Positions 46,425 to 63,490 of a DNA stretch of 64,000 bases are shown here, in pieces. Position numbers and translations under genes: made by a program. The DNA is taken from contig JAPOWQ010000029.1 in NCBI GenBank assembly GCA_026707585.1, positions 62,001 through 126,000 of the forward strand, given 5' to 3'. This DNA comes from Chloroflexota bacterium (GTDB taxonomy: Bacteria > Chloroflexota > UBA11872). Each line of letters starts with the position of its first letter. Position 1 is the stretch's first letter. A model generated the notes under the pieces. It was not told where the DNA came from, did not search any database, and was given only the letters and a program-made list of their open reading frames with translations.

Positions 46425-47452
46425 GCGCCGACCGGGGCGCCGACGGGCCGTCCGAGGGCGGCGGCCATGGGTTCCAGCCGGGCCATGAGCTCGCTGAAGT
46501 GGTTGAAGCTGAGGCTTTGCTGGCCGTCGATCAGGGCGGATTCGGGCTCGGGATGGACCTCGACGATGATGCCGTCGGCTCCGGCCGCGATTGAGGCCAG
46601 GGCCATGTCGTGGACCATGTACCAGTGGCCGGTGCCCTGGGACGGGTCGACGATGATCGGCAGGTGGGTGCGGCGGCGCAGGAGGGGGATGGCGTTGAGG
46701 TCGAGGGTGAAGCGCGAGGAGGTTTCGAAGGTGCGGATGCCGCGCTCGCAGAGCATGACGTCGGGGTTGCCGCCGGCCAGGATGTACTCGGCGCACATGA
46801 GCCACTCGTCGATGGTGTTGCCCATGCCGCGCTTGAGCAGGACGGGTTTCCCGCAGGCGCCGACCTCGCAGAGGAGCGGGTAGTTCTGGGCGTTGCGGGT
46901 GCCGATCTGCAGGACGTCGGCGTAATCGACGACGAATTCGACCTGGCGGGGGTCCAGGACCTCGGTAATGACGGGGAGGCCGGTGGCTGCGCGGGCCTCG
47001 GCCAGGAGCTGGAGGCCTGATTTGCCCATGCCCTGGAAGCTGTAGGGCGAGCTGCGCGGCTTGTAGGCGCCGCCGCGCAGCATCCGGGCGCCGGCGCCGG
47101 CCACGTGGGCGGCGGTGGCGGCCATCTGTTCGGGGCTCTCGACGGTGCAGGGGCCGGCCATGACGGTGACGGAGCCGTCGCCGATCTCGACATTGCCGAC
47201 CTGGACGACGGAGCGCTCGCGGGTGTCGGTGCGGGCGGCGAGCTTGAAGGGCTCGCTGATGGGGATGGTGGCCTCGACGTGGGGCATGCGCTCGAGCTGC
47301 TGGAGCAGCTCGGGGGGGCGAGTGCCGATGACGGCGATGACGGTCTTGTGTTCGCCGGGCAGGCGGCGGGTCTCCAGGCCCTCGGCATGGACGCGGGCTT
47401 CGACCGCGTCGAGGGCCGTCTGGCCGGCGCTGTTCTTCATCACGATGATCAT
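46421..47452 (-). CDS. aroF: 3-deoxy-7-phosphoheptulonate (DAHP) synthase, AroF/AroAbeta type
   Basis: 343 aa. First enzyme of the shikimate pathway. The N-terminal ferredoxin/ACT-like regulatory segment (residues 1-70, MIIVMKNSAGQTALDAVEAR) is typical of the Thermotoga-type enzyme and usually confers Tyr/Phe feedback. The catalytic barrel shows VMAGPCTVES, LRGGAYKPRSSPYSFQGMG, VLLKRGMGNTIDEWLMCAEYI, CERGIRTFE, and the metal His in IIVDPSQGTGHW. Lead gene of the operon, preceded by an attenuator-like leader. Confidence 0.97.
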
Positions 47453-47500
47453 CGAAGGGGCTCCTGGTAGGGACGGGGTGGGGCGAGTGGTCGGAGAAAG

Positions 47501-47526
47501 AAAAAAGCAGAGGCGGGGGCCTCTGC
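47501..47526 (-). terminator. Intrinsic terminator in the aro leader
   Basis: On the minus strand, GCAGAGGC and GCCTCTGC (47526-47519 and 47514-47507) make a perfect 8-bp stem with a CCCC loop, followed at once by TTTTTT. It lies 48 bp before the aroF start, and no minus-strand gene feeds into it. That makes a regulatory terminator the natural reading. Confidence 0.8.
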
Positions 47527-47527
47527 T

Positions 47528-47581
47528 GCCGGCGTCCGCGGGTCGCTGGATTACAAGGGGTCACGACCCGGCTGCGCCGGC
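47528..47581 (-). promoter_or_regulatory. Long stem-loop before the aro leader terminator
   Basis: Two nested perfect 7-bp helices (outer GCCGGCG/CGCCGGC at 47575-47581 and 47528-47534; inner CGGGTCG/CGACCCG at 47564-47570 and 47539-47545) are joined by a symmetrical 4x4 internal loop. The 18-nt apical loop contains the leader ORF's stop codon. The end abuts the terminator. Confidence 0.65.
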
Positions 47582-47631
47582 CCTGGAAACGCGAAATAGA
47601 CGCCGCAGGCTGGGGCGTGCGCGTGAGTCAT
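47551..47631 (-). CDS. Possible 26-aa leader peptide of the aro operon
   Basis: ATG at 47631 to TAA at 47551, translating to MTHAHAPACGVYFAFPGPAQ... with a Tyr-Phe-Ala-Phe run just before the long stem. Those are products of the pathway it precedes, as in pheL-type attenuators. The ribosome binding site is weak (GGGT). The peptide is shorter in Tyr/Phe codons than classic pheL, so the call is tentative. Confidence 0.45.
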   Translation of the reverse strand: MTHAHAPACGVYFAFPGPAQPGRDPL

Positions 47632-47747
47632 TCGTACCCGAACGCAAATCATGGGAAAAGAGTGTGCGCAAGGTTCGGGCGTGCGTCAATGGTATTCCGG
47701 TGGGGTGAGATGCCACACTAGGCTGTAGTCGGGGCGCGCGGTAAGGG

Positions 47748-49151
47748 TTGCGGTCGTTGACCCGCAAGACCATAAGGGGCGGGGATTCGCTGCGGCCGGC
47801 GTCGGAAGCCGCGCTGGTGCAGTTGTGGCTGGATGCCGCGTCGCGCGTTGGTCCGATGCGCGATTCGCTCGGGCGTTCGATCGAGGTGGTGTACCCGGGC
47901 CGCCGGACGGGGTTGGCGGGACCGGACCTGCAGGATGCCATCGTCAGTATTGACGGCGGTCCGGCGCGGCGGGTGGACGTGGAAGTTCACCTGCACGAGG
48001 CGTCGTGGGAGCAGCACGGGCACGGCGGAGACAGGCGTTACCAGGGTGATCTGCTGCACCTGGTGTGGACCCCGGCGCGGGGCGGAGCCGGGCGTCCGCC
48101 GTACATCCTGGCCGGGCAGGCGTTGGCCGATAGAGCGGCGCGAGGAAGACGGCGACCGGATACGGATGGGTGGCCGTGCTGGAACGAAAGGTCTGGGCCG
48201 GCGACCGGCGCCGAAGTGGGAGTGGCAATACGAGCGGAGGGCGTCCGGCGGCAGGCGGAGCGGGCGGCGGTGCTGGAGAGCGACATCGAGGCGCTGGGAG
48301 CGGACCAGGCTCTGTACCGGGCGGTTATGCGGGCGCTGGGATACAGCGCGAATACCGAGCAATTCGAGGCCGTGGCCGAGGCGGCGCCGATCGAGCTGCT
48401 GAGCGCGCTGGCCGGATCGTCGCTAACGGCCCGGCGGATGCGGGTGGAGGCCGAGTTACTGGGAGCGGCGGGGTTGCTGCCGAGCCAACGAGGGCAGCAA
48501 GCGGAGCATCCGCACGTGCGAGCGCTTGAGGAGGCTTGGGCAGCTGGGGCGCCGCGCGCGGCGCCCGCAGTTAGGAGCTGGACGCTGGCGGCGGTGCGAC
48601 CGCACAACCGGCCGGCGCGGCGCCTGGCCGGGGCGGCAAGGCTGTTTTGCATGGCGCCGATGGCGCGGCGTGCGCTAGCGGAGCGGGTGGCGGGGCAGGT
48701 GCTGGCCGCGTATGAGGGTGAGCGTGGACAGGACCTGGTCGGGTGGTTCCAGGTAAAGGTAGGTCCGGAGGACTTCTGGGCGAGGCACCTGGACGCAGGC
48801 CGGCTGGCGGCGCGTCCGCTGCCGGCGCTGATCGGACGCGGGTGCAGTCTCGAGCTTCTGGTGAACGCGGTCTTGCCGTTTACCGCGGCGTTGGGGGGCT
48901 GGTCGGGCAGACTCGAGTTAGTGACGGCGGCCGATTCGGTGCTGGCCGGCCTGGGATCGGTTGGCTGGAACCGGCACACGCGCTACATGGCCGACACGTT
49001 GCGGCTGGATCGGCGGGGGCTGGGATCGGCGCTGGCGCAACAGGGGTTGCTGCGGATTTACCGCCGCTGGTGCCGGGAGAAGCACTGCGGCGAATGCCCC
49101 GCGGCGAATCTGGCCGTGGCAACCCCGGCAGGTGCGGGCATCCGCGAATAG
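47748..49151 (+). CDS. DUF2851 family protein
   Basis: 467 aa. N-terminal motifs GPDLQDAIV, RVDVEVHLHEASWEQHGHGGD and Y-Q-G-D-L-L-H-L-V-W are hallmarks of DUF2851. The C-terminus has WCREKHCGECP, a possible metal or cluster site. The family occurs in Bacteroidota, Cyanobacteria and Chloroflexota and has no known function. The start is TTG at 47748; a TTG 9 bp downstream has the better-spaced AAGGG. Divergent from the aro operon. Confidence 0.8.
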   Translation: MRSLTRKTIRGGDSLRPASEAALVQLWLDAASRVGPMRDSLGRSIEVVYPGRRTGLAGPDLQDAIVSIDGGPARRVDVEVHLHEASWEQHGHGGDRRYQGDLLHLVWTPARGGAGRPPYILAGQALADRAARGRRRPDTDGWPCWNERSGPATGAEVGVAIRAEGVRRQAERAAVLESDIEALGADQALYRAVMRALGYSANTEQFEAVAEAAPIELLSALAGSSLTARRMRVEAELLGAAGLLPSQRGQQAEHPHVRALEEAWAAGAPRAAPAVRSWTLAAVRPHNRPARRLAGAARLFCMAPMARRALAERVAGQVLAAYEGERGQDLVGWFQVKVGPEDFWARHLDAGRLAARPLPALIGRGCSLELLVNAVLPFTAALGGWSGRLELVTAADSVLAGLGSVGWNRHTRYMADTLRLDRRGLGSALAQQGLLRIYRRWCREKHCGECPAANLAVATPAGAGIRE

Positions 49152-49242
49152 CTCGGCGCCGGCATTGCCGGGTTGAGGGAGTTTGCGATGTGTGTTGGCG
49201 GGCGGATGCCGAGATGATACTGACTGGAACTAAGTAAGATTA

Positions 49243-49272
49243 CTTGACAGTGCCTCGCTCAATATCTACTAT
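49243..49272 (+). promoter_or_regulatory. lon-dnaK operon promoter overlapped by a HAIR-like HspR site
   Basis: TTGACA (49244-49249), a 17-bp spacer and TACTAT (49267-49272) make a near-consensus housekeeping promoter. Overlapping it, CTTGACA-N7-GCTCAAT (49243-49263) matches the HAIR consensus CTTGAGT-N7-ACTCAAG at 10 of 14 arm positions with exact 7-bp spacing. HspR is encoded in the operon. Transcription would start near 49279, only about 4 nt before the ATG at 49283. Confidence 0.75.
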
Positions 49273-49282
49273 CGTGCGTGAT

Positions 49283-51733
49283 ATGACGGAATCGATGCAT
49301 CCCGAAGCCGAAGCCGACGGCGCGGAGGCGCGCGCGCGCGGCCCTGCCGCGCCGCGCCGCACGGTGGTGTCGGTGCGGCCCGAATCCACGCGCCTACCGG
49401 TGGTGCCGCTGCCGGATTGGGTGGCGTACCCGGAGTTGACGATGCCGCTGCACGCCAGCCGGGCCGTCTCGGTGGACGCGCTGGCGGCGGCCGCCGCCAA
49501 CGGCGACCTGGTGGTCGTGGTGACCCAGCGGCGGGCGCGCAAGACGGTGGACCCGCAGCACCTGTGCTCGGTGGGAACGGCGGCCAAGGTGATCCGCCGG
49601 CTGCGCATGCCGGACGGCGGCGTGCAGGTGCTGCTGGAAGGCCAGTACCGGGCGACGGTGGACGACATCGCGCCGGTGGGGGAGCACTTCGACGCGCGGG
49701 TGACGCCGCTGACGGTCGAATACCGCCCGTCGCTGGAGCTGGAGGCGCTGCGCCGCGTGGTGGTGGCGCACGTGGAAGGCGTGGCGGAGGAGACCAACAT
49801 GTTCGCGCCCGAGACGGTGGCCATGACGCGGCGCGCCGCCGACCCGGGCTGGCTGGCGGACTACGTGGCGTTCTCGTCCGACATGTCGCCGCACGAGCGG
49901 CAGACGGTGCTGGAGGCGCTGGATCTGACGGAGCGATTGCGGTTCGTGGCGCGCTACCTGGCCAAGCAGGTGGAGATCCTGAACATTCGCAACAAGATCC
50001 AGGGGGAGATCCAGGACGGCATCGAGAAGGTCCAGCGCGACTACTACCTGCGCGAGCAACTGCGGGCGATCCAGCGCGAGCTGGGCATGTCCAGCCCGCA
50101 GACCGACGACGCGCAGGACCTGAGCGACCGGGTGGACGCCTCGGACCTGCCGGACGACGTGGCGGCCAAGGCGCGGCAGGAAATCTCACGGCTGGACGCG
50201 ACGCCGCCGACCTCGCCCGAGGTGGGCGTGATCCGGGGCTACCTGGACTGGCTGCTGGCGCTGCCGTGGGCGCGTGAGACGCGCGACCACCGCAGCCTGG
50301 CGCGGGCCCGCCGGGTGCTGGACCGCGACCACTACGGGCTGGAGAAGCCGAAGGCGCGGGTGCTGGAGTTCCTGGCGGTGCGGGCGATCTCAACGAAGTT
50401 CCGGACCCCGATCGTCTGTTTCGTGGGGCCGCCGGGGGTGGGCAAGACGAGCCTGGGCCGCTCGATCGCGCGTGCCCTGGGCCGCGAGTTCGTGCGCATC
50501 TCGCTGGGCGGGGTGCGCGACGAGGCGGAGATCCGCGGGCACCGGCGGACCTACGTGGGGGCGCTGCCGGGCCGCATCATCCAGGCGCTGCGGCGGGCGG
50601 GATCGCGCAATCCGGTGATGCTGCTGGACGAGATCGACAAGATCGGCCGCGACTTCCGGGGCGACCCGTCGTCGGCGTTGCTGGAGGTGCTGGACCCGGA
50701 GTACAACCACAGCTTCTCGGACCACTACCTGGAGGTGCCGTTCGACCTCTCGCGCGTGCTGTTCGTGACCACGGCCAACACGGCCGAGGACATACCGCCG
50801 GTGCTGCGGGACCGCATGGAGGTCATTGAGCTGAGCGGGTACACCGAAGACGAGAAGGTGCGGATCGCGCAGGAGTTCCTGCTGCCGCGGCAGATCCGCA
50901 CCCACGGGCTGCGCAAGGCCGGCGTGACGTTCACGGACCGGGCGGTGCGCGAGGTGATCCGGCACTACACCCGCGAGGCGGGGGTGCGCAACCTGGAGCG
51001 CGAGCTGGCGGCGGTGTGCCGCAAGCTGGCGCGGCGGATCGCGGCCAACTACCGCACGGCCGCGCGGGTGACGCCGCGGCGCGTGCGCTCGGCGCTGGGG
51101 CCGGCCAAGTTCCTCCCCGAGGACGAGTCCCGCAGGCCGGAGGTGGGGGTGGCCACCGGCCTGGCCGTGACGCCGGTTGGCGGCGAGGTGCTGGACGTGG
51201 AGGCGGCCTGGATCGCGGGGGCCGGCAAGGTGCGCCTGACGGGGCAGCTGGGCGACGTGATGAGCGAATCGGCGCGGGCCGCGCTGTCGTACGCGCGGGC
51301 GCGCACCGGGACGCTGGGCGTGGACCCGGGGCTGTTCGCGCAGCGCGACCTGCACGTGCACGTGCCGGCCGGCGGGGTGCCGAAGGACGGGCCGTCGGCC
51401 GGGATCACGATGGGCGCGGCGATCATTTCGGCCATGACCGGGCGCCGGGTGCGGCGCGAGATTGCGATGACGGGCGAAGTGACCCTGCGCGGGCGGGTGC
51501 TGCCCATCGGCGGGCTGAAGGAGAAGGTGCTGGCGGCGCATCGGGCCGGCCTGCACACGGTGATCGCGCCCGAGGAGAACCGACCGGACCTGGACGACAT
51601 CCCCGCGCGGGTGCGCAGGCAGATGCGCTTCGTGTGGGTGAACGACATGGACACCGTGCTGGCGACCGTATTGATGAGCGAAGCCGCGGCGACGGATCAA
51701 CTGGGACCGGCCGCCGCGTCCGGATCAGCCTAG
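49283..51733 (+). CDS. lon: ATP-dependent Lon protease
   Basis: 816 aa. Start set at the ATG 49283 because the frame's upstream TTG (49244) is itself the -35 box; an ATG at 49295 is also possible. LON substrate domain (about 40-235), coiled coil, AAA+ module with Walker A GPPGVGKT (382-389) and Walker B LLDEIDK, and proteolytic domain with Ser705 in DGPSAGIT and Lys748 in LKEKVLAA. Degrades damaged proteins. In Streptomyces lon is an HspR target, in keeping with the operator found here. Confidence 0.97.
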   Translation: MTESMHPEAEADGAEARARGPAAPRRTVVSVRPESTRLPVVPLPDWVAYPELTMPLHASRAVSVDALAAAAANGDLVVVVTQRRARKTVDPQHLCSVGTAAKVIRRLRMPDGGVQVLLEGQYRATVDDIAPVGEHFDARVTPLTVEYRPSLELEALRRVVVAHVEGVAEETNMFAPETVAMTRRAADPGWLADYVAFSSDMSPHERQTVLEALDLTERLRFVARYLAKQVEILNIRNKIQGEIQDGIEKVQRDYYLREQLRAIQRELGMSSPQTDDAQDLSDRVDASDLPDDVAAKARQEISRLDATPPTSPEVGVIRGYLDWLLALPWARETRDHRSLARARRVLDRDHYGLEKPKARVLEFLAVRAISTKFRTPIVCFVGPPGVGKTSLGRSIARALGREFVRISLGGVRDEAEIRGHRRTYVGALPGRIIQALRRAGSRNPVMLLDEIDKIGRDFRGDPSSALLEVLDPEYNHSFSDHYLEVPFDLSRVLFVTTANTAEDIPPVLRDRMEVIELSGYTEDEKVRIAQEFLLPRQIRTHGLRKAGVTFTDRAVREVIRHYTREAGVRNLERELAAVCRKLARRIAANYRTAARVTPRRVRSALGPAKFLPEDESRRPEVGVATGLAVTPVGGEVLDVEAAWIAGAGKVRLTGQLGDVMSESARAALSYARARTGTLGVDPGLFAQRDLHVHVPAGGVPKDGPSAGITMGAAIISAMTGRRVRREIAMTGEVTLRGRVLPIGGLKEKVLAAHRAGLHTVIAPEENRPDLDDIPARVRRQMRFVWVNDMDTVLATVLMSEAAATDQLGPAAASGSA

Positions 51734-51742
51734 GAGGCAGCG

Positions 51743-53647
51743 ATGGCGAGCAAGATCATTGGGATTGACCTGGGGACGACGAACTCCGTCGTCTCGGTGA
51801 TGGAGGGCGGCGACCCGAACGTGGTCACGAACTCCGAGGGCAGCCGACTGACGCCGTCGGTGGTGGCCTACGGCAAGGGCGGGCAGCGCCTGGTGGGGCA
51901 ACTGGCCCGGCGGCAGGCGGTGATGAATCCCAAGAATACGATCAACTCGGCCAAGCGGTTCGTCGGTCGCCGGCTCACGGAGGTCGCGGACGAATCGGCG
52001 GCGGTGACGTTTGACGTAACCGATGGCCGGGCGGGCGAGGTGCTGATCAAGATTCCGGAGAGCGGCCGCGAGGTGACGCCGGAAGAGATATCCGCGGTCG
52101 TGCTGCAGAAGCTGAAGGCCGACGCGGAGAAGTACCTGGGCGAGGACGTGAGCGACGCGGTGATCACGGTGCCGGCCTATTTCAACGACTCGCAACGGCA
52201 GTCCACGCGCAACGCCGGGGAGATTGCCGGGTTGAACGTGCGGCGGATCATCAACGAGCCCACGGCGGCGGCGCTGGCCTACGGCCTGGACAAGCGCGGG
52301 GCCGAGACGATCCTGGTGTGGGACCTGGGCGGCGGCACGTTCGACGTGACCATCCTGGAGGTGGGCGACGGCGTGTTCGAGGTCAAGGCCACCAACGGGG
52401 ACACGCACCTGGGCGGCGACGACTACGACCGGCGCGTGGTGGACCACGTGGCGGAGGACTTCCTGCGCAGCGAGGGCATTGACCTGCGCAAGGACCCGCA
52501 GGCGCTGCAGCGGCTGATCGAGGCCTCGGAAAAGGCCAAGCAGGAGCTGTCGTCGGTGCCGCAGACCCAGATCAGCCTGCCGTTCATCACGGCGGACCAG
52601 ACGGGGCCGAAGCACCTGGACGCGGCGCTGACGCGGGCGGAGTTCGAGCGGCTGACGCAGGACCTGACGCAACGCTGCGTGGAGCCCTTCCGGCGGGCGC
52701 TGGGCGACGCCGGCATCCGGGCCTCGGAGATCAACGAGGTGGTGCTGGTGGGCGGATCGACGCGCATGCCGGCGGTGCAGACGCTGGTGCGCGAGCTGAC
52801 CGGCAAGGAGCCCAACCAGGGCGTCAACCCGGACGAGGTGGTGGCCATCGGAGCCGCGATCCAGGGCGGCGTGCTGGCCGGCGAGGTGGAGGACGTGGTG
52901 CTGCTGGACGTGACGCCGCTGTCGCTGGGCGTGGAGACGCTGGGCGGCGTGCTGACGGCGCTGATTCCGCGTAACACGACCATCCCCACCAGCAAGTCGG
53001 AGATCTTCTCAACGGCGGACGACGGGCAGACGGCGGTGGACATTCACGTGCTGCAGGGTGAGCGGCCGATGGCGCGGGACAACACGACGCTGGGCCGGTT
53101 CCGGCTGGAAGGCATCCCGTCGGCGCCGCGCGGCGTGCCGCAGATCGAGGTGACGTTCGACATCGACGCCAACGGGATCGTAAACGTGTCGGCCAAGGAC
53201 CTGGCGACGGCCAAGGAGCAGCGCATCACGATCACGGCCAGCACGAACCTCTCGGACGAGCAGGTGGAGGCGCTGGTCAACGAGGCCGAGGAGCACGCCG
53301 CGGAGGACCGCCGGCAGCTTGAGGAGGCCGAGCTGCGCAACAACGCCGACAGCCTGGCGTACCAGACCGAGCGGCTGATCAGCGAGAACGGCGACAAGAT
53401 CGAGGCGGCCGACCGGGAGGCGGCCGAGCGGGCGATCGCCGACGTGCGCAAGGCGCTGGAAGGCGAGGACCTGGAGGCGATCCGCAGCGCGACGGCGGTG
53501 CTGCAGACGGCGGCCCAGAAGCTGGGCGAGCAGATGTACCAGGCCGCGCCGGGGGCCGACGGCGCCGGTGCGGCGCCGAGTGCGGACGAGGCTCCGGCGG
53601 ACGAGGAGGTGGTCGACGCCGAGTTTGAAGCCGCGGACGAGAAGTAG
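51743..53647 (+). CDS. dnaK: Chaperone DnaK (Hsp70)
   Basis: 634 aa. GIDLGTTNS at the N-terminus, [36 protein letters not shown], and the linker [14 protein letters not shown] followed by the peptide-binding domain. The C-terminus ends in an acidic [13 protein letters not shown], like the EEVVDAEF(E/K) tail of bacterial DnaKs. AGGAGG lies 5 nt before the ATG. It follows lon by 9 bp, so both share the upstream promoter. Confidence 0.98.
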
Positions 53648-53653
53648 GGCCGG

Positions 53654-54154
53654 ATGAACGCCGACCCACAGGACCGCGCGGCCGCAGCCGGCAGCGAGCG
53701 CGAAGCGGAGCTGGAGGCCGCGGTGGCGTCGCTGAACGACCAGCTGCTGCGCCTGCGCGCCGAAATGGACAACTTCCGCAAGCGGGTGAACCGCACGACG
53801 GACGACCTGATCCAGGAGGCCAAGTCGTCGCTGCTGCGCGACATGCTGAGCGTGGCGGACGACCTGGACCGGACGCTGGCGGCGCTGGACGCGGGCTCGG
53901 ATCCGCGCAGCGCGCGCGAGGGCGTGCAGCTCACGCGCAACCGGCTGGACTCGCTGCTGGCCACGCGCGGGGTGCGCCCGATCGAGACGGAGGGCGTGTT
54001 CGATCCGCGCTGGCACGAGGCGGTGGCCACGCGGCCGGGCGCCGACGTAGCGGCGGGGACGATCACGGCGGAACTGCAGGCGGGGTATCGCTGGGGCGAC
54101 GACGTGCTGCGCGCGGCGCGGGTGGAAGTGGCCGTGGCGGACGACGGGTTGTAG
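53654..54154 (+). CDS. grpE: GrpE nucleotide exchange factor
   Basis: 166 aa. Coiled-coil N-terminal half (about 15-70, [20 protein letters not shown]) and C-terminal beta domain with [17 protein letters not shown], the GrpE signature region. Releases ADP from DnaK. Six bp after dnaK. Confidence 0.95.
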
Positions 54155-54162
54155 GGACGGCC

Positions 54163-55086
54163 GTGGAATACAAGGACTACTACCAGACCCTGGGTGTTCC
54201 ACGGAATGCGTCGCCGGACGACATCAAGTCGGCCTACCGGCGGCAGGCGCGGCGCTACCACCCGGACGTGAATCCGGACGACCCGGTGGCGGAGGCGCGG
54301 TTCAAGGAGATCAACGAAGCGCACGAGGTGTTGAGCGATGCGACGAAGCGGCAGCAGTACGACCGGTTTGGATCGAACTGGCGGCGGACCGGGTCGTTCG
54401 ACGAGGCGTTTCGGCAGAGCGGCGTGCGGATGGACGGGTTTGGCGATTTCTTTGGCGGCGGGGCGTCGGGATTCAGCGACTTCTTCGAGGCGCTGTTCGG
54501 CGGGCGCGCGCGGCCGCAGCGGCCGCAGCAGGCGAACGTGGAAGAGACGTTGCAGGTCAGCCTGCCGGAGGTGCTGAACGGCGGCCGGCGGGCGCTGACG
54601 ATGCGGGTGCCCTCGCCGGACGGCGGCGTGCGGCAACGGCGGATCGACGTGACGATTCCGCCGGGCGTGCGCGACGGGCAGCGGCTGCGGGTGGCGGGCG
54701 AAGGCGCGGTGCGGGCCGACGGGTCGCGGGGCGACCTGTTTCTGCGAATCCAGGTCAGTGACGATGCGGGCTTCGAACGCCAGGGCGACGATCTGACGAC
54801 GGAGGTTGCGATCGGACTGACGGAGGCTGTGCTGGGCACCCGGGTCGAGCTGCCGACGCCGTCCGGTTCGACGCTGACCGTACGCGTACCGGCGGAGACG
54901 CAGCAGGGCGCCCGGCTGCGGCTGCGGGGCCAGGGGCTGCCGCGGGCCGGCGGCAAGGGGCGCGGGGACATGCTGGTACGGATCCTGGTGCGGCTGCCGC
55001 GCAACCTGAGCTCGCGGGAACGGGATCTGTTCCGGGAACTGGCGCGGATTCGCGGCGAGGTTCCGACGCCGACGGCGGTGAGCTGA
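54163..55086 (+). CDS. dnaJ: DnaJ/CbpA-type co-chaperone without zinc domain
   Basis: 307 aa. J-domain residues 1-70 with HPD at 33-35, a Gly/Phe-rich stretch ([22 protein letters not shown]) and two C-terminal substrate domains. The four CxxCxGxG zinc repeats of type I DnaJ are absent, making this a type II (CbpA-like) protein. GTG start, 8 bp after grpE. Stimulates DnaK ATPase. Confidence 0.93.
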
Positions 55087-55087
55087 C

Positions 55088-55506
55088 GTGGTGTTCGACA
55101 GCGACGGCGAGCGACGCGACGACGACCTGCGCTCGCGCCCCGCGTATTTCATCGGGGTGGTGGCGGAGATCACAGAGATGCATCCGCAGACGCTGCGCCA
55201 CTACGAGCGCATCGGCCTGGTGACGCCGAGCCGCTCGCCCGGCAACGTGCGCATGTTCTCGCAGGAGGACATCGAGCGGGTGCGCCTGATCCAGCGGTTG
55301 ACCTCGGAGTTGGGGGTGAACCTGGCGGGAGTCGAGGTGGTGTTGAACATGCGCGACCGGTATCGGCGGCAGGCGGACGAGCACCGGCAGAACCTGCGGG
55401 AGATGCGACAGCGCTACGAAGCGGAGATCGAACGCCTGCGCAACGCCCTGCGGCGCGCCACGCGAGATCCGGGCGCGCCGCCGTATCCGAACCGGCGGCG
55501 ACGGCC

Positions 55507-55510
<4 letters not shown>
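55088..55510 (+). CDS. hspR: MerR-family heat-shock repressor HspR
   Basis: 140 aa, GTG start one base after the dnaJ stop. N-terminal MerR winged helix (about 20-90): [45 protein letters not shown], i.e. the helix-turn-helix, R-H-Y-E-R and N-V-R-M/R-Y/F-S elements. The C-terminal part is a coiled coil without the Cys of metal-sensing MerRs. Its place after dnaJ is that of Actinobacterial HspR, which binds HAIR sites with DnaK as co-repressor. The stop overlaps clpC by 4 nt. Confidence 0.88.
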
Positions 55511-58023
<2,513 letters not shown>

Positions 58024-58186
58024 GCCGCCGGGGGCTTGCGCGGCTGTCGGGCCGCGCGCGGGGTCCATCAAGCAGGGCCGTTGCCAACGCCGTGGCGGCC
58101 CAGCAGGTCGAGCGGACGTGGGGCTGCCTTGCCAGCGTTCTCGCGGCGGGGCACGATTCGCCGACTCGACGCTTCGAGGGCTTGCG

Positions 58187-58990
58187 ATGGCCTATACGGC
58201 GCTGGAACGTCTGAACCGCGATGAAATCGGCGCGCGCGCGCCCAATGCCGTGGCGATCATGCCGACGGCGGCGATCGAGCAGCACGGCCCGCACAACCCG
58301 ATCGGCCTGGACACGATGTGTTGCATGGCCGTGGCGCGCGGGGCGGCCGAGGCGGCGGGCGAGCTTGACGTGATGGTCAGTCCGCCGCTGCACTTCGGCA
58401 GTTCCGACCACCACCGGCCGTTTCCGGGGGTGCTGACGCTGCGGAGCACTACGTTCAGCCTAGTTCTTCTTGAACTGCTGGAGAGCCTGACGCTTTCGGG
58501 CTTCCGGCGCATCCTGATCCTGAACGGGCACGGCGGCAACATCCAGCTGATCCAGCAGGCGGCGCGCGACTTCGTGCTGGAGCACCCGGACGTGCGCGTG
58601 GCGGCCGGCGCCTATTGGGACATCGCCCGGCGGCGGCTGGAGGCGGTCGAGGCGAGCCGCGAGGTGCACGTACCGGGGCATGGGGGCGATTTCGAGACGT
58701 CGTTGATGCTGCACCTGCACCCGGAACTGGTGCTGGACGAGCTGTTGCCGATCGAGCACGCGGACCGGGACGATCCGCGCAGCTCGGGCTGGCCGAAGCT
58801 GGGCTCGTCTTCCATGGGGGCGTCCGTCAACGTGGCGGACATCGTGTACATGTCGTTCCCCGGCGCCCGCATCACCGGATTGAGCGACGACGCGCGAGCG
58901 GCCACGGCGGAGTTGGGGCGGCAGTACTACGAGATTGCCGTGGAGGAATCGGCCGAGCTGATCCGAACCATTGCGGCGGGGCTCGAGTGA
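58187..58990 (+). CDS. Creatininase family amidohydrolase
   Basis: 267 aa from the ATG at 58187 (GAGGG upstream). Metal-binding motifs of the creatininase/MftE/FAPy-deformylase fold: Glu/His in AAIEQHGPH, Asp in IGLDTM, His in SSDHHRPFPG, NGHGGN, and Glu in DFETSLMLH. Hydrolyses a cyclic amide, formamide or peptide; branch not fixed. Follows clpC by 163 bp. Confidence 0.9.
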   Translation: MAYTALERLNRDEIGARAPNAVAIMPTAAIEQHGPHNPIGLDTMCCMAVARGAAEAAGELDVMVSPPLHFGSSDHHRPFPGVLTLRSTTFSLVLLELLESLTLSGFRRILILNGHGGNIQLIQQAARDFVLEHPDVRVAAGAYWDIARRRLEAVEASREVHVPGHGGDFETSLMLHLHPELVLDELLPIEHADRDDPRSSGWPKLGSSSMGASVNVADIVYMSFPGARITGLSDDARAATAELGRQYYEIAVEESAELIRTIAAGLE

Positions 58991-59031
58991 TGGCTCGGGC
59001 GCATATCCAGCCAACCTGAGCGTCGGGAGTG

Positions 59032-59541
59032 ATGGCGAGGTCCGATCACCGGAACATCATTGGCGTCGGGGGCCTGGTGCGGATGGACGGCGGCATCCTG
59101 GTGGTGCGGCTGACGTACAGCGACATCAAGGGCCGGTACATGTTTCCGGGCGGCAAAGTCGATCCGGGCGAGTCGCTGGAAGCGGCGCTGATGCGCGAGG
59201 TGGAGGAAGAAGCGGGGGTGACGGCGGAGCCGGAGACGCTCATCGCCGTGCGGCACCGGGTCGACGCGAACGCGCTGAACACCTATGTGATCTTCAGCAT
59301 GCGGTACGTACGGGGCGAGCCTCGTCCGAACGGGCACGAGACGGACGACGCCGCGGTCGTCAGCGCGGAGCGCCTGCGGACGCAGCCCGAGCGGTTCGCC
59401 TCACTGGTGCCGGAGGTGGCGTTGCCCGTCCTGGCGGGCTCGGCGCAGGGGTTGTCCCGCCGGGACTACCTGCCGACGCACGGTCGCTGCGCGCCGGAGA
59501 CGTTTCAGCTCTACGCGGCGGCCGACGACGACGGCGGCTAG
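59032..59541 (+). CDS. Nudix hydrolase
   Basis: 169 aa. Nudix box GGKVDPGESLEAALMREVEEEAGV with the expected G-x5-E-x7-R-E-x-x-E-E-x-G spacing. Hydrolyses a nucleoside diphosphate-linked compound; substrate not determined. The C-terminal 50 residues are unassigned. Start at the ATG 59032 (a GTG precedes it directly). The stop overlaps that of the convergent Eis-like gene (CTAG). Confidence 0.9.
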   Translation: MARSDHRNIIGVGGLVRMDGGILVVRLTYSDIKGRYMFPGGKVDPGESLEAALMREVEEEAGVTAEPETLIAVRHRVDANALNTYVIFSMRYVRGEPRPNGHETDDAAVVSAERLRTQPERFASLVPEVALPVLAGSAQGLSRRDYLPTHGRCAPETFQLYAAADDDGG

Positions 59542-60740
59542 AAGCGATCCGCCGGCCAGTACATGAAGGGCGAATTGGGAAAGAGGCGTCGAAGGTACAC
59601 GTCCACGTGGGGCGGTATGTCGAGGGCGTCCAAGGCCTGGTAGCCGCCGGGCATGCCGAAGTAGAGGTCAAGGAACTGCCCGCTGGTGAGCTCGACGACC
59701 GGCTCATTGCCGACCGGCTCACCGATGACGACGTTGACCATGGGGGTCTCGATCCTCGCGGCTTCGCCATCGACGTTGAGAACGAAGGCGGGGCCCGGTA
59801 ACGGGGCCATCCGTCGGCGTCGGCGGATGAGCTCGGGAACCACGCTTTCCAGGGCGCCGCGCAGCGAATTCAGCCTGGCCATGCAGTGCCGGCTGGGCTC
59901 GAGAGTCGCGCTGGCACGCTTGCGCAGCAGGTCGAACAGCTCGGATGCGGGATGCAACTCGCCCGCCAAACGGGTGACGCCGCGGGCGGCGGCCCGATCC
60001 CGCCAGACATTCAGCAGGGGGATCGCGAGGTTCTCGCTCTGAATGCCGCCGTCCAGAATGGTCAACGCATCGTCGGACACCTCGGTGATGGCGTAGGCCA
60101 CGACGGAGCGAACCTGGACGAGCACGTCGAAGTGGACGTCGGCGCCGCGTGAAAGGCCGGGCAACCAGTCCATGAGGGCCAGCCAATAGGCTTCGCTACG
60201 GTGGAGCGGGCCAACGCGGTCCGCGGCGATGTCACTGTAGATCCCCATGACGGCGGGCAGATCGGCGGCCTGGAAGGGCCGAACAACGTAGCCGCCGGCC
60301 CACTCGATGTCGCCGTCGGGGAAGCGGGCCTGGAGCCGTGCGGTGGGGACGGGGTGCCAGCCACGGCCGGCGTAGACGGCGGGAGCGCCGGTGGAAAGCA
60401 GCGAGAGCGGCTGGCCGTCGGCCTGCATGCGCTCGACAGCGGCGTCCAGCAGCCGACCGGCGTGGCCCTGACCGCGATGCGCGGGATCGACGGCGACGTC
60501 GGCTATGCCGCCGAAGCGCACGCGCGCCTCGCCATAGCGCATGGCGCGGTCGGCAATCCAGAGATGCCCGACGATTGCCCCGGAATCAACGGCCACCAGA
60601 CTCTGGGCTACGTCCCAGGCAGGGTCGGCGCTCTGGTGCCGTTCGAAGTAGTGGCGGGGCGTGTCGTGGAAGGCCCGGGCGGTAACGTCCAGGGCTTCGT
60701 CGCGTCGATCCGGGGTCAGGGGGCAGACCATAGGGTTCAT
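59538..60740 (-). CDS. Eis-like GNAT N-acetyltransferase with SCP2-like C-terminus
   Basis: 400 aa from the ATG at 60740, the usual Eis length; the frame's extra 48 residues have no likeness. First GNAT domain with VDPAHRGQGHAGRLL (acetyl-CoA loop) and YAGRGW. Second GNAT-like domain (about 160-290). C-terminal SCP2-like fold (about 300-400, AFVLNVDGEAARIE, SGQFLDLYFG). Eis proteins acetylate amines, including aminoglycosides and peptides. Natural substrate unknown. Confidence 0.82.
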   Translation of the reverse strand: MNPMVCPLTPDRRDEALDVTARAFHDTPRHYFERHQSADPAWDVAQSLVAVDSGAIVGHLWIADRAMRYGEARVRFGGIADVAVDPAHRGQGHAGRLLDAAVERMQADGQPLSLLSTGAPAVYAGRGWHPVPTARLQARFPDGDIEWAGGYVVRPFQAADLPAVMGIYSDIAADRVGPLHRSEAYWLALMDWLPGLSRGADVHFDVLVQVRSVVAYAITEVSDDALTILDGGIQSENLAIPLLNVWRDRAAARGVTRLAGELHPASELFDLLRKRASATLEPSRHCMARLNSLRGALESVVPELIRRRRRMAPLPGPAFVLNVDGEAARIETPMVNVVIGEPVGNEPVVELTSGQFLDLYFGMPGGYQALDALDIPPHVDVYLRRLFPNSPFMYWPADRF

Positions 60741-60775
60741 AGGCAAGGGTTGGAGCGTTGCGGGCACGTAAAAGC

Positions 60776-60800
60776 GGCCCGACGCGCTGGCGTCCGGGCC
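60776..60800 (-). promoter_or_regulatory. Hairpin in the leader of the Eis-like gene
   Basis: On the minus strand, GGCCCG and GCGT pair with ACGC and CGGGCC arms to make a roughly 10-bp stem with one bulge and a 4-nt loop, followed by GC-TTTT. It lies 36 bp before the ATG, with no gene feeding in from upstream. Terminator-like, so possibly a control point. Confidence 0.4.
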
Positions 60801-60935
60801 GGTAGGAAATATAGCAGAGCCCGGCCGTGATCCGCGGCTAGACTCAGGCGGCTGACCGAGCAGAGAAGCTCGAGCGTTCAGCATGGATCGAGGTGAAGGC
60901 GGCCGTGCGGGCCACGGCAGGCACCGGAGGCCAGC

Positions 60936-61685
60936 GTGGAACGCGTGATCCGTCGCCCGCGTCTGCGCGACCTGCTGACGCTGCGCGCTCTGCTGTTTGC
61001 GCTGCTGGGGGTGCTGGCGCTGTCGGTGGCTGCCCTACTGCTGGCGCTGATTACGACCGAACCGGCACGCACGCCGCCGCCGCAGCGCGAGGCCCGCCCA
61101 GCGGCCCCCGCGGGCACGGATCAAGCGAGTCTCCTAAGCGAAGACGCGGTGCCGGACGCTCCGGCGCGAGATCGCTCACCGCTGGTGCGATTGCCGCCGC
61201 GGCCGGCGCCGGCACGGCTGCAGACATTGGACGCGCTTCCGATCAACATGATCAACGATCCGAACCTGCGTTCGTTCCTGCGTGAGGCGGATCGAGTGAT
61301 CGCCGCTCTTGATCCGGCCACGGGCTACCTGGGGATGCTGGCGACCCAGGCGCTGCGCGACGAGACGTCGAGGTTGCGGGTGGTGGTAGAGAGCGGAGGA
61401 TCGGCCGCCGCGCTTGCCGAAGTCCGTCCGGTGCGCTCGACGTCGGAGCTGCCGGCCGACGCCCAGACGCTGGCGCTGCTCTTGCGGTCGATCCTGATGA
61501 CGGGCTCTGGCAGCCAGCTAGGTCTGCTGAACAGCCTGGCGGGGCAGCCGGCGATCACGGAGCGCATCCAGCAGGCCCGGGAGGCGCGCGCGCTGGGCCG
61601 CTTTATCGAGGTGAACGACGCGCTGGAGTTTGGCGCCGACCTGCGCGACCACATCGTGGTGTCGACAGCAATCGATCGTCCCTAG
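60936..61685 (+). CDS. Membrane-anchored protein, unknown function
   Basis: 249 aa, GTG start. One N-terminal membrane helix (about residues 14-41: ALLFALLGVLALSVAALLLAL), a Pro/Ala-rich linker (45-95) and a helical C-terminal domain (100-249) without known motifs. Likely anchored with the domain outside the cytoplasm. It ends convergent with the lipoprotein gene, sharing CTAG. Confidence 0.6.
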   Translation: MERVIRRPRLRDLLTLRALLFALLGVLALSVAALLLALITTEPARTPPPQREARPAAPAGTDQASLLSEDAVPDAPARDRSPLVRLPPRPAPARLQTLDALPINMINDPNLRSFLREADRVIAALDPATGYLGMLATQALRDETSRLRVVVESGGSAAALAEVRPVRSTSELPADAQTLALLLRSILMTGSGSQLGLLNSLAGQPAITERIQQAREARALGRFIEVNDALEFGADLRDHIVVSTAIDRP

Positions 61686-63490
61686 CCGGCGGCCGGCTCG
61701 ACGTCGGGTAGCTGCCAGGCCTCAATCGCCCGTTGGGCGTTAGCGGTCAGCAGAAGGTTGGCGGCCGGCGCCGCGGCGGCGGCGCGAATCTCGGACGACG
61801 TGACGAGTTGCCCGAGTTGCGTGCCGTCGGCGCGAAAGACGGCCAGCGCGCGCTCCGACGTCTGGGCAATGACGTAGGCGTCGGTGACGAGCAATCGCTC
61901 CACCGCCAGCCCGGGCACCTGCCATAACTCGGTCCCAGTCACACTGAACGCCGCCAGGCCGTTCGGCCCGGCCAACACGATGGTGTCGGCGGCCGGCAGG
62001 CGGGCCGCGGCCGACGAGGGATAGCCGATCTGCCACACGAGATCGCCGCGGGCGCTGTCGAAGATCTGCGAACTGCGGTCGGTGACGGCCACGGTGTGCT
62101 CACCAGTCTGGGTAAACAAGACCTTGTGCACTTCGCCGTCGACGCCGAAGCGCTGACCCAGGTTTCCGGCGGGTGTGATCAGCACGATGTGGTTTTCCCC
62201 CCGGTTGTTGGAGGAGGCGACGGCCACGGTTCCGGTGTCCGGGTTGAGGGCGACGTCGGCGGCGCTGATGTAGGCCCGGGTGGGTCCCCAGAGCTGACCG
62301 GAGTGCCCAAAGGCGAAGACGTGCCCCACGTCGCTGGCATTGGTGGAGCGCACCACGAGCCAGTCGCCGCCGGGCGCGAATACCACGTCCTCAAGCAACT
62401 GGTTGTCGGGGCGGGCGGGCGAGCGCCAGATCGACCGGCCTTCGGCATCGAGCAGCAGGAGATCGAACCCATGGGCGGCCATGAGTTGGCCGTTGCCGGA
62501 CACGGCCGCGCGGGACAGCGGGATCTTGAGATTGCGCGTCCAGCGCGAGTCGCCGTCGGGGCCAAATGCCGCGACGGCGCCGTTGCGCGCGATGGCGAGC
62601 ACGAGCTCGGCCTGGTCGGAGGCCGCGAGGGCCGTGATGTCGAAGTCGGTACGAGCCAGCCAGGCGCGCTCGGTCCAGCGGCCGGCGGACGGGGCCCGCA
62701 CGTCAGTGAGTTTGAAGGCCAGATCGACGACGTCTTCAATTCGGGTCGCGAGGCCGTCGAGCTGCCATTCGCGGGCCGCGGCGTCGGCTTCGTCCGGGCT
62801 GGGATAGCGACCCGCTTCGACCCACCGCCGGAAGACGCGAGACATGCGGAGCGTGGGAAGACGCTGGCCGATTCGGGCCCGCGCCGCGCTCTCGTCGTCG
62901 AAGGGCCCAACCAGCACGGCCAGCATGGGAACCCGAACGACATCGAACTGGAACTCGCCCAGCTCGGCGATGGTCGCCAGCAGCCAGTCTTTGGCGCGGC
63001 CCGGCCCGACGGCCTCGGCGAAGGCGCCGACGGCGGATCGCGCGCGCTTTTGCAGGGTGATGACGTGCACGAGGCGCTCGGGTTCCTCGAGTTCCTCGTA
63101 CGCGCGCAGCGTGGGGATGATCTCGACCAGGGCGTCGACGGCCGTGGTGAGATGCCGGTGCGCCGGGACGGCCGTCGCGGGCGGGTTGAGCGGGACGAGA
63201 GCCTGGCCCAGGGCGCCAATGGCTTCGAATCGAGCCTGGGCGGCAGCCGCGAACTGCTCGGGAGTCTGGGACCCGGCGGCCAGTTCGCGGATGTTGAGTT
63301 CCAGCGTGCGCACGACGTCGAGCGAGTCAGTGGCGACGGTGAGCGCGGGCTCCCAATACGGCCGGGCGCCCAAGCTGACCGCCGGGGGCGCGGGTTCGCC
63401 GCAGGCCGCGGCGAACGCGGCGAGCGCGGCGGCCGCGGATGCGGCCAGGAAGCCTCGCCGCGAGGCGTCGCGCCGCTGCGGTGGGCGCAC
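61682..63490 (-). CDS. Lipoprotein with probable PQQ/YVTN-like beta-propeller
   Basis: 602 aa from the GTG at 63490, 8 nt after the miaB stop. Signal with twin Arg (SRRGFLAAS) and lipobox Cys30 (FAAACGE). Residues about 40-280 are helical and unassigned. From about 290 to the end, repeated strands such as DGDSRWTRNLKIPLSRA, SGQLWGPTRA, GDLVWQIGYPS and GTELWQVPGLAV resemble outer-membrane-assembly/PQQ-type propeller blades. Probably an extracytoplasmic sensor or scaffold; no enzyme motif. Confidence 0.65.
   Translation of the reverse strand: MRPPQRRDASRRGFLAASAAAALAAFAAACGEPAPPAVSLGARPYWEPALTVATDSLDVVRTLELNIRELAAGSQTPEQFAAAAQARFEAIGALGQALVPLNPPATAVPAHRHLTTAVDALVEIIPTLRAYEELEEPERLVHVITLQKRARSAVGAFAEAVGPGRAKDWLLATIAELGEFQFDVVRVPMLAVLVGPFDDESAARARIGQRLPTLRMSRVFRRWVEAGRYPSPDEADAAAREWQLDGLATRIEDVVDLAFKLTDVRAPSAGRWTERAWLARTDFDITALAASDQAELVLAIARNGAVAAFGPDGDSRWTRNLKIPLSRAAVSGNGQLMAAHGFDLLLLDAEGRSIWRSPARPDNQLLEDVVFAPGGDWLVVRSTNASDVGHVFAFGHSGQLWGPTRAYISAADVALNPDTGTVAVASSNNRGENHIVLITPAGNLGQRFGVDGEVHKVLFTQTGEHTVAVTDRSSQIFDSARGDLVWQIGYPSSAAARLPAADTIVLAGPNGLAAFSVTGTELWQVPGLAVERLLVTDAYVIAQTSERALAVFRADGTQLGQLVTSSEIRAAAAAPAANLLLTANAQRAIEAWQLPDVEPAAG

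Follow-up and report, generated by a model that had tools for sequence, protein, structure and literature searches.

A predicted HspR operator fused to the −35 box of a lon-headed heat-shock operon in Chloroflexota

How is a heat-shock operon controlled when it places a Lon protease, the DnaK machine and a candidate repressor of its own in one transcription unit? The question is raised by six genes on the + strand of a 64,000-nucleotide stretch of DNA from a Chloroflexota bacterium, the whole of which is referred to here as the window. The genes encode the ATP-dependent protease Lon (49283–51733; TIGR00763 above cut-off, with Pfam Lon domains), DnaK (51743–53647; TIGR02350 above cut-off, with an AGGAGG Shine–Dalgarno sequence), GrpE (53654–54154; PF01025), a CbpA-like DnaJ that matches PF00226 and PF01556 only and has no zinc-finger domain match (54163–55086), the MerR-type heat-shock repressor HspR (55088–55510; NF047375 at 108.4 bits, curated NCBIfam cut-off 105) and a clpC-type Hsp100 (55507–58023). 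The clpC-type product has Clp_N and ClpB_D2-small domains, scores below the ClpB cut-off and, by eye, shows a UVR-like segment in its middle together with an LGF motif, as Hsp100s that bind ClpP do. Consecutive genes are separated by 9 nt (lon–dnaK), 6 nt (dnaK–grpE), 8 nt (grpE–dnaJ) and 1 nt (dnaJ–hspR), hspR and clpC overlap by 4 nt, and a scan of the + strand found no terminator-like site. An earlier note on this DNA had placed hspR in the lon unit, and the gene does lie within the same tightly spaced, one-strand run. The operon is flanked by conserved neighbours: upstream, the genus retains a DUF2851 gene (47748–49151), and the creatininase-family gene that lies downstream (58118–58990) occurs in the sister genus as well. 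Chloroflexota MAGs are the closest named records to carry the same Lon, and their isolate names presumably point to sponge microbiomes.

Only one protein in the genome exceeds the curated HspR cut-off, and it is the one encoded in the lon operon (108.8 in the genome search); two weaker MerR-family proteins are also present. The helix-turn-helix of HspR matches PF13411 and PF00376, and its nearest solved relatives are GlnR and CueR chains.

Immediately before lon, positions 49243–49263 hold an asymmetric HAIR-type inverted repeat, CTTGACA-N7-GCTCAAT, which is the predicted HspR operator (C TTGACA GTGCCTC GCTCAA T in full). Its left arm includes a perfect −35 box on the + strand (TTGACA, 49244–49249), and a −10 box, TACTAT (49267–49272, +), follows after a 17-bp spacer, ending 10 nt before the lon ATG at 49283. 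The sequence is exactly as the earlier note had described it. From the position of the −10 box, transcription of the + strand would start within 49278–49281, 2–5 nt before the ATG. It is very probable, on comparative grounds, that 49243–49272 forms a composite of a sigma-70 promoter and an HspR operator, and that it controls lon-dnaK-grpE-dnaJ-hspR-clpC in an autoregulatory loop.

Taken as a single sequence, the site makes a weak case for an operator, because it carries four mismatches to the textbook HAIR sequence CTTGAGT-N7-ACTCAAG and because a promoter match of this kind is expected by chance. A sigma-70 scan of 47000–62000 returned 49243–49272 as its sole promoter-like site where shuffled sequences yield 0.8, a match that is not significant by itself. 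Nowhere in the 64,000-nt window does a site come within three mismatches of the textbook sequence. The general HAIR form, an inverted repeat TTGA...TCAA with seven nucleotides between 6-bp arms, is nevertheless present as TTGACA-N7-GCTCAA. The composite pattern TTGACA-N7-RCTCAA-N4-TANNNT, which was defined after relatives had been seen, has one exact match in the window, with 0.01 expected even when two mismatches are allowed. Rfam elements were absent from the neighbourhood of the lon promoter, and the whole window contained one tRNA only. It is the comparison with relatives that renders the operator claim convincing.

Orthologues of lon were fetched from the same genus out to other classes. 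By hand count from the tables, TTGACA-N7-RCTCAA stands upstream of lon in 35 of 36 class genomes with a readable region, spanning five families; the exception (G033) reads TTGATA-N7-ACTCAA before lon and has no TANNNT at the 17-bp spacing. An alignment of 17 representatives, with each genus supplying one or two, shows no variation in the arms apart from R at one position, an invariance that is partly by construction since the arms served to find the sites; the unbiased figures are the count upstream of lon and the comparison with a reversed control given below. In the same representatives the 7-bp centre is poor in information apart from its last base, which is C or G. A TANNNT box lies exactly 17 bp from the −35 box in nearly all of them, although the −10 box played no part in their selection. 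Sigma-70 makes no sequence demand on the promoter spacer in which the right arm sits, so conservation of this arm is the hallmark of an operator.

Two positions of the left arm depart from the known HAIR consensus, which counts against an HspR reading. Class-wide, the promoter-proximal half retains the established half-site RCTCAA, complementary to TTGAGY, and TTGACA forms the distal half. The asymmetry may reflect a compromise between a strong −35 box and an HspR half-site, and the predicted class operator is a fixed asymmetric HAIR variant fused to the −35 box. The symmetric form TTGAGY-N7-RCTCAA was considered as an additional class of site and discarded, being no commoner than its reversed control.

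Genome-wide, TTGACA-N7-RCTCAA occurs twice in the organism's own genome and its reversed control not at all; with the −10 box included there are again two matches in 3.92 Mb, against about 0.0006 expected from genome size and base composition. Among 35 class genomes the composite was found 47 times, against 0 in the reversed control, and the matches that were inspected lie before the lon operon or hsp20, with a single one (in G020) before a gene resembling the partner of hsp20. The earlier note had proposed a genome-wide search for other HAIR-type sites, and this search yielded the second composite copy, located by pattern search and Pfam on the minus strand directly before hsp20 (PF00011; G000:C60:112747-112775). 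This hsp20 has an ordinary leader with a GGAGG Shine–Dalgarno sequence, and its operator site was also found in the genus, the sister genus and another family of the order. Because the same operator–promoter design recurs before hsp20 elsewhere in the genome, the predicted HspR regulon of this organism comprises two units, the lon operon and hsp20.

The shorter pattern also matches before a penicillin-binding-protein-like ORF in G025 and G027, before a Rex-like ORF in G029 and at G019:C7; these were set aside as chance occurrences, each without TANNNT at the 17-bp spacing. One genome (G001) has the hsp20 site and no operon-type HspR match, which may be due to incompleteness of the MAG.

On contig C60, hsp20 is followed by a gene (L059:2448-2690, minus strand) whose 80-aa product has a zinc finger of the DksA/TraR type (PF01258) and YbiI as its nearest solved relative. 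A similar gene in G020 (L072) seems to lie behind an operator of the same kind with no hsp20 between them, which raises the possibility that this DksA/TraR-type gene is itself a heat-shock gene. Stretches such as GACTTGCG and CACGCAG recur within the genus in the 40 bp that precede the −35 box of hsp20 (e.g. in L059, L060 and L062–L064); they are unlike the block found before lon.

The combined six-gene unit, which the earlier note had thought unusual, proves to be normal within the class. Among the loci fetched, 21 have the order lon-dnaK-grpE-dnaJ-hspR-clpC: 20 of these represent all five class families that were sampled, and the remaining one belongs to a different class of the phylum. In other classes, where lon is missing from the unit, the site stands before the dnaK (G043, G052) or dnaJ (G050, G058, G042) of the hspR operon. 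The strongest reason to name HspR as the protein that reads this site is that the site accompanies hspR operons rather than one fixed first gene. Counting against this reading, several genomes of the phylum possess hspR and no such site. Other arrangements were also observed: in another class, L056 and L057 (G060 and G048) have a rearranged hspR-lon-dnaJ-clpC order in which hspR leads and neither dnaK nor grpE was matched, and G048 carries a TTGACA-N7-TTGTCAA-like repeat before hspR. L088 comes from a genome of another class (G056) with eight HspR-like matches, several of them clustered on one contig.

Two simpler or competing accounts of the site must be weighed against HspR. The inverted repeat could be an accident of the TTGACA box in a plain strong sigma-70 promoter that no repressor binds, and the sigma-70 scan alone does account for TTGACA-17-TACTAT, one such site per 15 kb being expected by chance. 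That account is highly improbable given that five families retain RCTCAA, a spacer sequence, next to a variable 7-bp centre, and given the 47 composite matches against none in the control. A repressor other than HspR, whether a further protein of the MerR type or some other heat-shock regulator, might instead read the site; it is only partly identical to the known HspR consensus, and the two weaker MerR-family proteins would be available for the role. We consider this unlikely too: the site goes with hspR operons that have different first genes, its targets (lon, the dnaK operon and hsp20) are HspR targets in Streptomyces and Deinococcus (PMC2687793), and the core of CIRCE, GCACTC-N9-GAGTGC, is absent at the operator and has no exact match in the genome. 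Conservation, site counts and gene order thus lend strong comparative support to the earlier proposal of an HspR operator over the promoter with a feedback loop.

HspR binding, DnaK co-repression, heat induction and the transcription start are predicted here by analogy with the known system. HspR, the product of the operon's fifth gene, would bind TTGACA-N7-GCTCAA, probably assisted by DnaK as in Streptomyces; the position of dnaK inside the operon is only suggestive of such a co-repressor. Once bound, HspR would overlie the −35 box together with most of the spacer and thereby block RNA polymerase. Misfolded proteins might then titrate DnaK, or HspR itself might be inactivated, either of which would lift repression. 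Lon, DnaK-GrpE-DnaJ, ClpC and HspR would be made together, closing the loop, and Hsp20 would rise in parallel.

The design resembles several characterised HspR systems without coinciding with any. In Streptomyces, where the HspR consensus is TTGAGY-N7-ACTCAA and HspR targets lon, dnaK and clpB separately (PMC2687793; for lon, Sobczyk 2002 as cited in PMC9775585), a MerR-type HspR is likewise encoded with dnaK, the inverted repeat has a 7-bp centre and lon is a target. The Streptomyces targets have separate promoters with TTGAGY-N7-ACTCAA sites, whereas here a single lon-headed operon is preceded by a left arm that reads TTGACA, an exact −35 box, and a clpC-type gene takes the place of clpB. 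Deinococcus radiodurans also has dnaK, dnaJ, grpE, a lon and hsp20 under HspR, but, as cited in PMC2687793 and PMC6888292, its regulon extends to ftsH and clpB and contains lonB rather than a lon-headed operon. Helicobacter and Campylobacter share imperfect HAIR-like operators and a cbpA-type gene under HspR; there HspR acts together with HrcA, whereas here the operator overlaps the −35 box and the CIRCE core is absent (PMC6102357, PMC7464140). No paper on HspR in Chloroflexi was found in the open-access literature, where absence is no proof of absence.

The short distance between promoter and start codon had led to the further suggestion that lon is leaderless. A constant 10 nt separate the −10 box from the ATG in nine genomes of the genus, where the ATG itself is conserved and lacks a preceding Shine–Dalgarno sequence; a G at 49280 is kept in all nine aligned genomes, and a start there would give a 3-nt leader. 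Leaderless genes are estimated at about 5% in Chloroflexi genomes where they were detected (PMC3160421). The suggestion is plausible for the genus and does not carry beyond it. The sister genus has a conserved GGAG-N6-GTG start about 24 nt further downstream, two of its members lack any in-frame ATG close to the −10 box, and it probably uses the later GTG with its Shine–Dalgarno sequence. Because of this downstream start, a near-leaderless lon is at most local, a predicted trait of one genus.

The description of the site in the earlier note held, and missed both hsp20 as a second member of the regulon and a conserved block before the −35 box. This block, a genus-specific element of 32 bp on the + strand (GAGATGATACTGACTGGAACTAAGTAAGATTA, 49211–49242), lies directly upstream of the −35 box. 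Across eight genomes of the genus its mean pairwise identity is 0.977, compared with 0.894 for the operator plus −10 box, about 0.64 for the flank just upstream and 0.74–0.85 at four-fold sites of lon. Within the block, a 6-bp inverted repeat (AAGTAA-GA-TTACTT) extends into the −35 box; this repeat is broken in G007. The element is lost or unrecognisable in two members of the genus (G008 and G002). With one copy per genome it is not a dispersed repeat, and a coding function (MILTGTK-stop, 49214–49237) is unlikely, as the frame lies upstream of the predicted start and silent positions are conserved too. Nor is it a general HspR feature, as a search of hsp20 promoters did not find it.

It is conceivable, at somewhat below an even chance, that 49211–49242 is the site of a second regulator, an activator or an alternative sigma factor, which would place the operon of this genus under dual control with HspR. 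An identity of 0.977 over 32 bp, against 0.74–0.85 at four-fold sites, is consistent with such a role, as are the uniqueness of the element in each genome and its location, which falls in the activator-binding range at about −37 to −68 relative to the predicted start. Set against these points, no known motif was recognised in the element, it is missing in G008, in G002 and at hsp20, G009 reads GGAAGT instead of GGAACT, and by eye there is no conserved ECF-type −10 box. The element could also be an extended contact of HspR, comparable to the footprint in H. pylori, where HspR protects 70–80 bp around its HAIR (PMC6102357). The full arrangement, in which the genus operon has two cis-elements, the −35-fused asymmetric HspR operator and a 32-bp element bound by an activator or sigma factor, and a near-leaderless first cistron, is offered tentatively and is rather doubtful as a whole.

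The HspR reading itself is well supported by the comparison of genomes, and the system appears to be a well-defined variant of HspR/HAIR. By that comparative support, HspR control is extended to a class of largely uncultured Chloroflexota. Lon and ClpC, two ATP-dependent protease components, would share one operon and one predicted switch with the Hsp70 machine and their repressor. The fusion of the operator with the −35 box, kept in its asymmetric form, yields a clean predicted regulon of two units in the organism's own genome, and the conserved upstream element suggests a further input to the operon.
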